Below are positions 1-38,946 of a stretch of DNA of 64,000 bases, one piece after another (positions within the stretch are counted from its first letter, which is position 1; every line of letters begins with the position of its first letter). Under the pieces are notes generated by a model that did not search any database, was not told where the DNA came from, and saw only the letters and a program-made list of their open reading frames with translations. A program made the position numbers and the translations under genes. Source of the DNA: Buchnera aphidicola (Schlechtendalia chinensis). Lineage in GTDB: Bacteria > Pseudomonadota > Gammaproteobacteria > Enterobacterales > Enterobacteriaceae. Where the stretch lies: the NCBI RefSeq assembly GCF_001648115.1, contig NZ_CP011299.1, positions 372,001 to 436,000 of the forward strand, given 5' to 3'.

Positions 1-582
1 TTTTTAGAAACTCAACAACGGAAAAATGCACATTATATGAAAATCTTCTTCGAGTTCCAAAATCTATAATTTTTAATTTAGATATATCTAAATCTTTTGT
101 TGCTTTATAAAAATTCACAATTTTTTTTTTAAAAAATCTACAGCTATTTTTGAATTAATGTTAGGAGATTCAGATTTATGAACAATTTCACTAATTAATG
201 ATAATAGAGGAACTTCCCATAATATTACTTCTTTCCATAATCCATGTATACGAATATATAATTCACCATTTTTATTGCACACGTTTACTTGCTTAGAATT
301 ATATCGAAAATTTTTTAACCATAACAAATATTTTTTTTTAAAAAAAGGGAAAGAAGACATGTATGTATATTCGTCATCAGTAAGATACAAATTTTCAGAC
401 ATCATTTCAATTTGATTTACTAACGTATCAGAATATTTTCCAAATAAGTTGTGTCCTCTGCATAAAAATTGCGCGGAAACAGTAACATTATGATAATAAT
501 AGAAAATAGCCTGTTGCATATGAAACTTATAAGCATCAGTATCTAAAAAAGTTTTTAGTATTGGGTGGTTACATATTTTCAT
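1..582 (-). CDS. pncB: Nicotinate phosphoribosyltransferase, partial at window edge, frame broken at an A10 run
   Basis: Converts nicotinate and PRPP to nicotinate mononucleotide in NAD salvage, in the cytoplasm. The first 155 residues, from the ATG at 582, follow E. coli PncB closely ([13 protein letters not shown] near the start, then [21 protein letters not shown] sequence). The frame then stops at 115-117, just after an A10 run on the coding strand (121-130). Adding one A joins it to a second open frame covering 114 to 1, which reads [18 protein letters not shown], the expected PncB continuation. The gene therefore runs out of the window and is intact apart from one homopolymer length. 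It is divergent from pyrD. It could be a pseudogene, or be rescued by transcriptional slippage; the unbroken downstream frame favours rescue. Confidence 0.88.
121..130 (-). other. A10 slippage/frameshift site in pncB
   Basis: Ten T on the plus strand are ten A in the pncB sense strand. The sense codons read TTA AAA AAA AAA TTG TGA as written. With eleven A they read TTA AAA AAA AAA ATT GTG AAT and continue as PncB. The flanking six T make a T6A10 block, a good substrate for RNA polymerase slippage. The count agrees with the translated frame on the stop-proximal side. Confidence 0.8.
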
Positions 583-834
583 AATAAATTTTCAAATAAC
601 TGTTTATAATTAAATATTATAAAATATTTTAGTAATATATTGATATAATATGTAAAAAATTGTTTTATAATTATTATAATTTTTAATGTTTAATTTTTGA
701 TTTTCATATTCTAAAATCGTATATTTTATAAAATTATTAAATCGTAACTTTTTTCAATATAATTATATAGAATTGTAAAACAAAATTATAAAAGTATTAT
801 ATTTCAAGCACATACATAATTTAGGTATTTTAAT

Positions 835-1842
835 TTGTATAATTTAATTCGAAAAATATTATTTTGTTTTGATCCAGAAAGATCTCATAAAATAGCACTA
901 AATTTTTTAAAATTTAAAACACATTTTAGAAAAAATTTTATCAGTTCTGGAAAAGATCTATGCAAACCTGTAAAATGTATGGGATTAGATTTTAAGAATG
1001 TTTTAGGATTAGCAGCAGGATTAGATAAAAATGGAGTATATATTGATATTTTGTCTATGTTAGGTTTTGGATTTATAGAAATTGGAACTGTTACTCCACA
1101 GCCGCAATATGGAAATGATATACCACGTTTATTTCGAGTCACTCCAGCTAACGCATTCATAAATCGTATGGGATTTAATAATCACGGAATAGAAAAAGTT
1201 GTTTCAAATTTAAAAAAAACTGTTTTTAAAGGTGTAATTGGAGTAAATATAGGAAAAAATAAAAATACACCAATAAAAAAAGGAATATTGGATTACATTT
1301 ATTGTATGAAAAAGATATACCATCTTTCTAGCTATATTGTTATAAATATATCATCTCCAAATACAAATAAATTAAGAGAACTACAATATGGAAAACTATT
1401 TGAAGAAATTCTTTTAGGAATTAAACATACTCAAGAAAAATTAAGAATACTACACAAAAAATATGTTCCTATTGCAATAAAGATTGCACCAGACTTATCC
1501 AAACAAGAACTTATTCATATTACAAGTAATTTAATTAAATATGATATCGATGCTGTAATAGCAACAAATACTACAACAGACTTTTCACTTATAACAGGAC
1601 TTAAAAATAGTTCTGAAATTGGTGGATTAAGTGGCAGACCATTACAATACAAAAGTACAAACATAATAAAAAAACTTAGTAAAGAACTAAAAAATAAAAT
1701 TTCTATCATTGGAGTTGGAGGGATAGATTCACTAATATCAGCTCGAGAAAAAATAAATGCAGGAGCGCACTTACTTCAAATATATTCTTCATTAATATAT
1801 AAAGGTCCAAAGATCGTAAAAAAAATAATAAAATATTTATAA
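835..1842 (+). CDS. pyrD: Dihydroorotate dehydrogenase (quinone), class 2
   Basis: Oxidises dihydroorotate to orotate with FMN and passes electrons to the membrane quinone pool; fourth step of pyrimidine synthesis. The 335 residues match the E. coli enzyme (336) end to end, including NCMGL-like GLDFKNVLGLAAGLDKNG, NRMGFNN, the FMN/substrate loop INISSPNT with the catalytic Ser, IATNTT, GGLSGRPLQ and GVGGIDS. The start is TTG at 835, eight bases after an AGG-like ribosome site; it aligns with the E. coli N-terminus (MYxxxRKxLFxxDPER), so an ATG is not required. Downstream is uup, as in E. coli after loss of zapC, ycbX and rlmL. Confidence 0.96.
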   Translation: MYNLIRKILFCFDPERSHKIALNFLKFKTHFRKNFISSGKDLCKPVKCMGLDFKNVLGLAAGLDKNGVYIDILSMLGFGFIEIGTVTPQPQYGNDIPRLFRVTPANAFINRMGFNNHGIEKVVSNLKKTVFKGVIGVNIGKNKNTPIKKGILDYIYCMKKIYHLSSYIVINISSPNTNKLRELQYGKLFEEILLGIKHTQEKLRILHKKYVPIAIKIAPDLSKQELIHITSNLIKYDIDAVIATNTTTDFSLITGLKNSSEIGGLSGRPLQYKSTNIIKKLSKELKNKISIIGVGGIDSLISAREKINAGAHLLQIYSSLIYKGPKIVKKIIKYL

Positions 1843-11334: not shown

Positions 11335-11481
11335 AAATTTAAAATATTTTACTATTAAAATTATTGAATCTAACATTAAATCATTAATATTTTTTAATTT
11401 AAAAAACGTTTTATATCTATTCCAAAATATAATATTAATTATATTCATTTATACTTATTACTAATAAGGAAAAAATTTAAA

Positions 11482-12425
11482 ATGAATCAATCGTTATATT
11501 TAAAAAACATTATATCTATTAATGATTTAAGCAAACAAGAGTTAGAATTAATTTTAAACATTGCTAATACTCTTAAAAAAAAAATCATCTAAAATTACTA
11601 AAAAATAAAATTGTTGCCATTTGCTTTTTTGAAGCTTCTACTAGAACTCGATTATCTTTCGAAACTGCTATACTCAAGCTAGGAGCATCAATAATTGGAT
11701 TTTCCGATGGAAATAATACTTCTTTTGGAAAAAAAGGAGAAAGTTTATCTGATACTATTTCAGTAATTAGTACCTACGTTGATTTAATTATTATTCGACA
11801 TCCTAAAGAAGGAGCAGCTAGATTAGCATCTGAATTTTCTAATAAAATCCCCATTATAAATGCTGGAGATGGTGCTAATCAACATCCCACGCAAACATTG
11901 CTAGATTTATTCACAATTCGTGAAACCCAAAAAAAACTGAATAATTTAAATATAGGCATGGTTGGTGATTTAAAATATGGTAGAACAGTGCATTCTCTCA
12001 CTCAAGCATTATCAAAATTCAATAATAATCGTTTTTTCTTCATTTCTCCAAATACATTAACAATGCCTAGCTATATTAACAATATGTTGCATGAAAAAAA
12101 AATTGTTTGGAATAAGTACAATAATATTAAAGAAATTATTTCTAAAATAGATATTTTATACATGACAAGAATACAAAAAGAACGTCTTGAATCTACAGAA
12201 TATGTCAATATAAAAACGAAATGTGTCTTAAAAGCCATTGATTTAAAAAATGCTAAGAAAAATCTTAAAATTTTGCATCCATTGCCTAGAATAAATGAAA
12301 TTTCTAAAGATGTAGATAAGACACCATATGCGTGGTACTTTCAACAAGCAAAAAATGGAATATATACTCGACAAGCATTATTAGCACTAGTATTAAATAA
12401 GGATATATATAATGAATCAAATTAA
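11482..12425 (+). CDS. pyrB: Aspartate carbamoyltransferase catalytic chain, frame broken at an A10 run
   Basis: Condenses aspartate and carbamoyl phosphate, the first committed step of pyrimidine synthesis; the catalytic trimer pairs with PyrI. From ATG at 11482 (after AAGGA) the protein begins [20 protein letters not shown], matching E. coli, then stops after 35 codons just past the A10 run at 11575-11584. One added A restores a full 314-residue frame (E. coli 311) containing [55 protein letters not shown] and LHPLPR. All of the downstream sequence is free of stops and well conserved, so selection still acts on it. It overlaps pyrI by 14 bases. Slippage rescue is more likely than a pseudogene. 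Confidence 0.93.
11575..11584 (+). other. A10 slippage/frameshift site in pyrB
   Basis: Sense codons read CTT AAA AAA AAA ATC ATC TAA as written, ending the frame. With eleven A they read CTT AAA AAA AAA AAT CAT CTA and run on as PyrB. The two halves lie in different frames whatever the exact run length, because the ATG and the downstream coding frame differ modulo 3. The run falls at the variable linker just before the conserved [11 protein letters not shown] segment, where extra lysines would be harmless. Confidence 0.82.
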
Positions 12426-12876
12426 AAAATTAAAAGTCGAAGCAATCAATTGTGGCAGCGTAATTGACCACATCCCTTCACAAATTGGCTTTAAATTGCT
12501 AACTTTATTTAAATTTACTGAAACAGAACAAAGAGTAACTATAGGTTTAAATCTTCCTTCACAAAAATTAAAAAAAAAAGATATTATAAAAATTGAAAAT
12601 ACATTTTTAACAGATGATCAAATTAATCAACTCTCTATCTATGCACCATGTGCTACAGTAAACCATATTTATAATTATAATCTAATAGGAAAAATTTTTC
12701 CTACTGTACCTAGCAGAATAAATAAAATATTAGTGTGTCCTAATAGTAATTGTGTTAGTAATGATTTAGAAATTTCTTCTAGCTTTAAATTTAAAAAAAA
12801 TAATAACGTTTACTTAATTTGTAAATATTGCGAAAAAGAATTTCAAAAAAATATTATTTTAATGAATCAATGCTAA
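12412..12876 (+). CDS. pyrI: Aspartate carbamoyltransferase regulatory chain
   Basis: Binds CTP/UTP and ATP and transmits allosteric control to PyrB. 154 residues, as in E. coli. The N-terminal nucleotide domain starts [15 protein letters not shown]; the zinc domain has four Cys at 109, 114, 137 and 140 (VCPNSNC and CKYC), the expected spacing. The ATG at 12412 lies inside the end of pyrB (14-base overlap), so translation of the two is probably coupled. This makes the pyrB frameshift important: without slippage, ribosomes would stop far upstream. Confidence 0.97.
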
Positions 12877-17934: not shown

Positions 17935-18098
17935 AATAATGTCCTTAATATATTACAATTTGCATATTTACAAAACATAAATTAATACTTATAATCCTTG
18001 TTCATCTAAAAAATGTAATAGTTTCTAAAATAAATTAAATTTTTTCAAGATTTTAAAAAATTTAAAACATTTTATGTTTAAAAAGCTAAAATTTTTTA

Positions 18099-38137: not shown

Positions 38138-38392
38138 ATGGTAAAAATTCGATTAGCAAGAATTGGATCTAAAAAGCGTCCATTTTATAAAATAGTAATT
38201 GCCGACAGCAGATGTCCAAGAAATGGAAAATTCATAGAAAAAATAGGATTTTTCGATTCGATAGCGTCAAAAAAAAATAAAAATATCAATCTAAACTTTG
38301 AAAGGCTACAGTACTGGTTACAAAATGGTGCTTTAATGTCCAATAAAGTAAAATATTTAGTAAAAACATTTTCAAAAAAACAAAATACTTAA
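38138..38392 (+). CDS. rpsP: 30S ribosomal protein S16
   Basis: Assembly protein for 16S helices. 84 residues (E. coli 82). MVKIRLARIGSKKRPFYKIVIADSR-like start (key: RLxRxGxKKRPFY), RNGKFIEKIGFFD, and RLQYWLQNGA. ATG at 38138 after AAAGGA. First gene of the rpsP-rimM-trmD-rplS operon. Confidence 0.96.
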   Translation: MVKIRLARIGSKKRPFYKIVIADSRCPRNGKFIEKIGFFDSIASKKNKNINLNFERLQYWLQNGALMSNKVKYLVKTFSKKQNT

Positions 38393-38403
38393 AGGAAAAT
38401 TAT

Positions 38404-38946
38404 ATTATAAATACCACAAATAAATGTTTTAAAAACTTAATAATTGCACAATTTGGATCTCCTAATGGAATACTAGGATGGATTCGTGTTTTTTCTTTTA
38501 CAGAAAATAAAAAAAACATTTTTAAATACTTTCCTTGGTACATTCAAAATAAAAAAAAAATTACTCATGTTCAAAGTTGGAAAGATAGGAATAAGTATTT
38601 TGTAATAAAAATCGAAAATATTCAAACTCGTTGTATGGCTAATACATTAAAAAACTGTCACATATATATTAATTCAAATATATTACCAAAGCTTCAAAAT
38701 GAAGATTACTATTGGAAAGATATTATATCCTGTTCTATATATAATATACAAAACCAAAAATTAGGAATAGTAACTAATTTAATTAAGACACCAGCTCATG
38801 ATGTTCTTGTTATTAGCAATAAATCAAAAAATAATATTAAAGTAAATAAAAATATATTAATACCTTTTATTGAAAAAAAAATTATTAAAAAAGTTAGCAT
38901 CATTGAAAAAACAATTATAGTAGATTGGAATTACAATTTTGAATAG
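38404..38946 (+). CDS. rimM: Ribosome maturation factor RimM, apparently starting at ATT
   Basis: 16S processing factor that acts with S19. Homology to E. coli RimM begins upstream of the first in-frame ATG (38635): IIAQFGSPNGILGWIRVFSF, FPWYIQNKK and SWKDRNKYFVIKI precede it, followed by the PRC-barrel part EDYYWKDIISC and HDVLVISNKS up to IVDWNYNF. Upstream in that frame there is no ATG, GTG or TTG. ATT at 38404 stands seven bases after AAAGGA, which overlaps the rpsP stop, and gives 180 residues (E. coli 182). ATA at 38407 is the next option. A rare AUU start, as known for infC, is my choice. Confidence 0.88.
   Translation: MINTTNKCFKNLIIAQFGSPNGILGWIRVFSFTENKKNIFKYFPWYIQNKKKITHVQSWKDRNKYFVIKIENIQTRCMANTLKNCHIYINSNILPKLQNEDYYWKDIISCSIYNIQNQKLGIVTNLIKTPAHDVLVISNKSKNNIKVNKNILIPFIEKKIIKKVSIIEKTIIVDWNYNFE

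Follow-up and report, generated by a model that had tools for sequence, protein, structure and literature searches.

The gene pyrB of Buchnera aphidicola (Schlechtendalia chinensis) (CP011299.1; genome of 607,835 bases) is probably a working gene whose reading frame is restored by slippage of RNA polymerase at a poly(A) run, and whose product, the catalytic chain of aspartate carbamoyltransferase (ATCase), joins the regulatory chain PyrI. The DNA appears to be one base short at this run. RNA polymerase would slip on its about ten A's and leave a mixed mRNA pool, in which the transcripts with one extra A (or two fewer) would give the full-length catalytic chain that assembles with PyrI; unslipped transcripts would stop after 36 codons and give only a short peptide. 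From the DNA we infer the restoration of the frame, its transcriptional rather than translational level, and the joining of PyrI. The pyrB frameshift is real, old, under selection, and very probably recoded at the A run, and its best reading is that of an unusually old and stable case of poly(A) slippage, a kind already familiar from Buchnera and Blochmannia.

Organization of the pyrB locus

The window, i.e., the whole stretch of 64,000 nucleotides that was analysed, carries the features listed in Table 1. The 5' ORF starts with the ATG at 11482 and ends with the TAA at 11590-11592, and the stop of the 3' part lies at 12423-12425. From ATG to this stop, pyrB measures 944 nt, which is 2 mod 3, so one added base (or two fewer) is needed to read through it. 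On the 3' side of the A run, the zero frame contains 24 stops and the third frame 37.

Table 1. Features of the pyrB locus and of pyrD in the window.
Feature	Position	Strand	Remark
Shine-Dalgarno-like AAGGA	11466..11470	+	11 nt 5' of the pyrB ATG; from sequence
pyrB 5' ORF, zero frame, 36 codons + TAA	11482..11592	+	Codons before the A run encode the N-terminal part of the catalytic chain of ATCase
A10 run, junction of the frames, proposed slippage site	11575..11584	+	A9-A11 at the same place in 9/9 genomes
pyrB 3' part, -1 frame, 280 codons + TAA	11583..12425	+	Remaining catalytic chain
pyrI, ATCase regulatory chain, intact	12412..12876	+	14-nt overlap with the end of pyrB; TIGR00240 176 bits vs cut-off 149
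pyrD, stop-to-stop frame	820..1839	+	Later step of the same pathway

The initial annotation had placed a split of pyrB at 11575-11584, where the run is indeed exactly A10 and the remainder lies one frame away; its division of the gene into two parts also stands, with the sizes of 35 and 279 codons corrected to 36 and 280. Both halves had been said to match PyrB perfectly, and they do match it, in a manner that is good rather than perfect: E. coli PyrB is matched at residues 3-31 by the N part (E 0.003) and at residues 37-308 by the C part (E 3e-132). The junction must therefore fall within the few residues between, which are variable among relatives (for example, KKTPQPN in intact relatives). 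The -1 frame is about 69.5% identical to E. coli proteins, and the C part scores 350 bits with TIGR00670 against a cut-off of 237. When PyrB of the window was aligned to the E. coli chain 1q95_A, STRTR, GKKGE, RHP, HPTQ, KYGRT, TR.Q, and HPLPR, which we take to be the ATCase active-site motifs, were all seen. The N-terminal segment preceding the carbamoyl-phosphate motif is encoded solely in the 5' ORF. The gene pyrI proved intact and overlapping pyrB, as had been claimed.

Upstream of pyrB, AGGA or AGGT occurs in several relatives, not in all. An Rfam search gave a sub-threshold match only (E 0.2), promoter-like sites did not rise above the shuffled background, and terminator-like sites were looked for and not found.

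Frame offset and selection across the genus

The genus set consisted of 11 genomes, namely S. chinensis, Melaphis rhois CP033004.1, Baizongia pistaciae, S. peitan, Floraphis choui, Meitanaphis flavogallis, M. elongallis, Kaburagia rhusicola ensigallis, Nurudea yanoniella, N. shiraii, and Chaetogeoica yunlongensis (the last eight being species of PMC11188193, whose seven further Rhus-gall assemblies lie outside the compared set). pyrB is present in nine of them and missing from two Fordina relatives. In all nine, the distance from ATG to stop is 2 mod 3 (941-965 nt, the length in N. shiraii being counted from the first possible ATG), and the frames join at an uninterrupted A run, which is A10 in seven genomes, A9 in S. 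peitan, and A11 in F. choui. The offset is unaltered through a change of A10 to A9+G and through a 3-nt in-frame codon deletion beside the run. The base following the run is T in seven genomes, C in one, and G in one, that is, there is no strict context at this position. The C half is 84-90% identical to that of the window across the nine genomes.

The same offset in nine out of nine related genomes is far beyond chance. Outside the genus, open pyrB frames of at least 308 aa were found in all 24 selected small genomes, and a search of the family, covering 392 genomes of which 287 gave a match, returned frames below 300 aa only in the own genus, among the matches listed. In a FastTree tree of 24 genes, whose root was set by choice at the two Fordina genomes, Melaphis is nested among the other eight pyrB-bearing genomes; the split between Melaphis rhois and S. 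chinensis is dated to 48-70 MYA, as cited in PMC3174202. The pyrB offset appears to predate the diversification of Rhus-gall aphid Buchnera. Since nine genomes including Melaphis rhois share it, base-call error and recent death are excluded. Although homopolymers are prone to error, there is next to no chance that a fault of sequencing or assembly produced an identical offset in nine diverged genomes that match at least three accession series, and nearly all other long A runs of the same stretches sit in unbroken ORFs; the base-call error that the initial annotation had named as its own refutation is answered by this comparison.

Selection was expressed as mean pairwise dN/dS (NG86, 36 pairs), which across the nine genomes is 0.195 for the N half (27 codons) and 0.096 for the C half. 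Neither half has a stop in its own frame; in the other frames, stops add up to 27-255 across the nine genomes. Low dN/dS and the lack of stops in both halves indicate that both sides of the frameshift are selected as protein. When constraint was ranked in the surrounding 40 kb (36 ORF queries, 31 usable alignments), the C half of pyrB came second and pyrI third among the 31 ORFs. The earlier statements that the gene is otherwise clean and not dead are borne out: no other disruption exists in any of the nine genomes, all of which combine the shared offset with purifying selection and no decay, and pyrB carries only the one offset, at a run of nine or more A's, and is intact in all other respects.

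Conservation of both halves would also suit an enzyme formed from two chains, the 36-residue peptide and an internally initiated C-terminal chain. We regard this as highly improbable: before the STRT motif, the C frame holds no ATG, GTG or TTG in seven of the nine genomes, and the remaining two have one TTG with no AGGA-like site within the preceding 14 bases (the scan covered ATG, GTG, and TTG; unusual starts such as ATT were outside it).

The losses in the pyrimidine pathway speak for a dying pseudogene, with carbamoyl-aspartate or pyrimidines coming from the host or the medium. The two Fordina relatives are without pyrB, pyrC, pyrD, and, within the examined 40 kb, pyrI, and pyrC and pyrD, which are present in five of the nine pyrB-bearing genomes, are both absent from the same four Rhus-gall genomes, which fall into two distinct pairs on the tree (2 changes). 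However, the dN/dS of 0.096, the lack of further disruption in nine of nine genomes, and a clade span cited as 48-70 My make decay very hard to credit, and constraint persists in both pairs without pyrC and pyrD (dN/dS of 0.09 and 0.16, pairwise values that may partly cover the period preceding the losses). The nine-genome offset, dN/dS, and the lack of a usual start in seven of nine genomes led to the rejection of base-call error, pseudogene, and internal start, respectively.

All nine genomes with pyrB contain carA, pyrE, and pyrF, and the four genomes without pyrC and pyrD keep pyrBI, pyrE, and pyrF. Because of these four, the pathway argument is complete for five genomes only. Where pyrBI outlives pyrC and pyrD, enzymes of the host might bridge the gap. 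The Fordina genomes are G008 and G010 (region around argI); G008 also gave no pyrF match and no pyrE above the cut-off.

Persistence of the A run and other frameshifted genes

Coding A/T runs of at least nine bases were surveyed around pyrB (95 entries) and in two control regions picked by position alone (112 entries in 40 ORFs; all nine genomes are represented in 38 of them), giving 207 entries; the control survey has 112 entries on full query length, against 108 when aligned stretches only are used. At least nine bases are kept in all nine genomes only at the pyrB and ftsI sites, both of which are frameshift junctions (the ftsI junction is counted twice, within both half-ORFs). The full-length control survey again had the ftsI junction alone at nine of nine and two sites at eight of nine. 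The sites kept in eight genomes are an in-frame one in ftsI and the murF junction; at the latter, F. choui as the ninth genome has an A10 no more than 70 bases away. Among the four run sites that persist best, three are frameshift junctions and one is not; as the in-frame ftsI run is kept in eight of nine genomes, run persistence alone is no proof of slippage. The pyrB run never falls below nine bases, the RNA:DNA hybrid length used in PMC5574713.

Amino-acid conservation is also a partial confounder of run persistence. Of 167 invariant Lys columns, 78 are all-AAA, so three successive all-AAA Lys columns have a chance near 0.1 and are not improbable alone; an argument for the A run from codons only is weak and was rejected. 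Near pyrB, only one other invariant KKK site exists (ORFs with at least eight usable genomes), and it is A9 in five of nine genomes. Intergenic runs, which would reflect neutral run-length volatility, could be aligned in numbers of only 3-5 per genome pair.

Several other genes in these genomes are frameshifted at homopolymers. ftsI is shifted at an A9-A11 run in seven of the nine Rhus-gall Buchnera and in frame in two; murF (L171:13591-14992) is split at an A9-A11 run in six of nine and occurs in three frame states, in frame or with either of two offsets; mraY (L171:12533-13622) has a split near a T9 run in only two of nine, S. chinensis and S. peitan; rimM is intact in the window (38347-38943) and split at A10/A11 in three of nine genomes (G004, G007, and G009). 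rimM was found in the survey of the pyrB area, and ftsI, murF, mraY, and murD in the control regions. Counted by Fitch parsimony inside the clade, frame changes number 0 for pyrB, 2 for ftsI, 3 for murF, 2 for rimM, and 1 for mraY, with states assigned by hand and rimM and mraY scored as shifted or not; with so few genes, the contrast is suggestive only. Since ftsI, murF, mraY, murD, and rimM are also shifted, the uniqueness of pyrB as a frameshift is weakened, and its constant state is the more clearly unusual.

At the ftsI junction (L171:17847-17880 in G000, and its orthologs), the run is kept in all nine genomes. Splits at A10 in single genomes were seen in murD (1/9, G009; L175:10283-10316) and, as a second split, in ftsI (1/9, G001; L183:16544-16550). 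The gene pncB (nicotinate phosphoribosyltransferase; window 118-591, minus strand) is split by an A10 at its low-coordinate end, likewise in Melaphis; its frame is open over 395-399 codons in four relatives, and the available stretch is too short in three. A run of N's lies inside ffh of G001 (L141, about 18026-18058).

Probable restoration of the frame and its significance

Ancient frameshifts maintained in homopolymeric sequences were reportedly described by Wernegreen et al. 2010 for another gene in Blochmannia; like that of pyrB, the frameshift is retained across species with no gene decay. Poly(A) frameshifts rescued by transcriptional slippage were reported in Buchnera and Blochmannia by Tamas et al. 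2008 (via PMC3017870, PMC3164680, and PMC6260861). These cases resemble pyrB in having a single offset at a run of about A10 in an otherwise intact endosymbiont gene. They differ in that the pyrB offset occurs in all nine pyrB-bearing genomes examined, in an old clade and in one of the most constrained local genes. According to PMC3164680, 42 of 69 pseudogenes in four Buchnera genomes are homopolymer cases confined to single genomes, and the homopolymer-split mur genes of Buchnera include murF, murE, and mraY. These share the run type of pyrB, and splits of ftsI, murF, and mraY also occur in the present genomes; the frame state of the mur genes flips between species, whereas that of pyrB is constant.

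Slippage of RNA polymerase at pyrB fits the persistence of the 9-11 nt run. In Buchnera, transcription insertions rise exponentially with A/T run length, up to 11, according to PMC5574713; on the other side, that study's data contained no transcription error by which a frame was restored. Full-length transcripts make up 30% of those from frameshifted genes, as given in PMC3017870, citing Tamas 2008.

Alternatively, the ribosome might restore the frame by -1 frameshifting on A AAA AAA at the Lys codons, a rather doubtful reading, though the shift would occur on the same A run and give an identical protein. In the zero frame CTT AAA AAA AAA, the P and A sites can re-pair perfectly after a one-base slip back, and a slippery heptamer of the form X_XXZ_ZZN is present in the right phase (AAA AAA AAA before the zero-frame stop). 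The A_AAA_AAA cluster is a proven stem-loop-stimulated case in E. coli, but without a stimulator the effect of the motif is at most 10x a background near 0.055% (both from PMC4066793). No SD-like element was found within 25 nt upstream of the run in any of the nine genomes, and no structure in the 70 nt downstream was more stable than in shuffles (z -1.33 to 1.39, from folds without pseudoknots). Nothing here thus points to a stimulated ribosomal shift; an unstimulated -1 shift on A AAA AAA may take place. A 7-mer would do for a ribosomal slip, yet at least nine A's are kept in nine of nine genomes. Compared with frameshifting of the dnaX / IS type, pyrB has the slippery heptamer without the stimulators (nine genomes; pseudoknots not modelled).

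It is possible that the offset is retained for regulation. On this reading, which seems unlikely, the out-of-frame state itself is selected and slippage would work as an output dial for pyrBI that sets the dose of the catalytic chain and, via the pyrB-pyrI overlap, that of PyrI, perhaps in response to ATP or UTP. Such a dial would explain why pyrB is out of frame in nine of nine genomes with no return, in contrast to ftsI, murF, mraY, and rimM with 1-3 state changes each on the same tree. In E. coli, the slippage at pyrBI studied by Liu 1994 is said to occur at a U run. Reiterative transcription at this operon takes place shortly after initiation and regulates the promoter (Liu 1994, via PMC1088944). 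The operon is the same in Buchnera, but there the site lies inside the coding sequence and is an A run.

The literature searched (supplementary files being outside its scope) did not mention a frameshift of pyrB in Buchnera of Rhus-gall aphids, and a search by term for pyrB and frameshift gave 0 matches in the main text of PMC11188193 and PMC11193766. When 5.8 billion predicted proteins were searched (7,999 candidates scored, 1,820 matches), no match above 78% identity to the window PyrB was full length among the best 120 of the 1,820. The sole match above 78% identity among these 120 is a 256-residue form starting after the STRT motif, which is consistent with a gene caller shortening the same frameshift in a further assembly. 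The Buchnera-named entries among the best 120 have 309-311 aa, and P0030, with no organism given, has 278 aa.

A strongly constrained metabolic gene seems to have relied on molecular infidelity from a time before its clade diversified. Gene catalogues seem to miss such genes, so metabolic reconstructions could wrongly call a pathway broken. With flipping frames in some genes and a constant one in pyrB, slippage as a tolerated accident versus slippage as regulation becomes a testable distinction.
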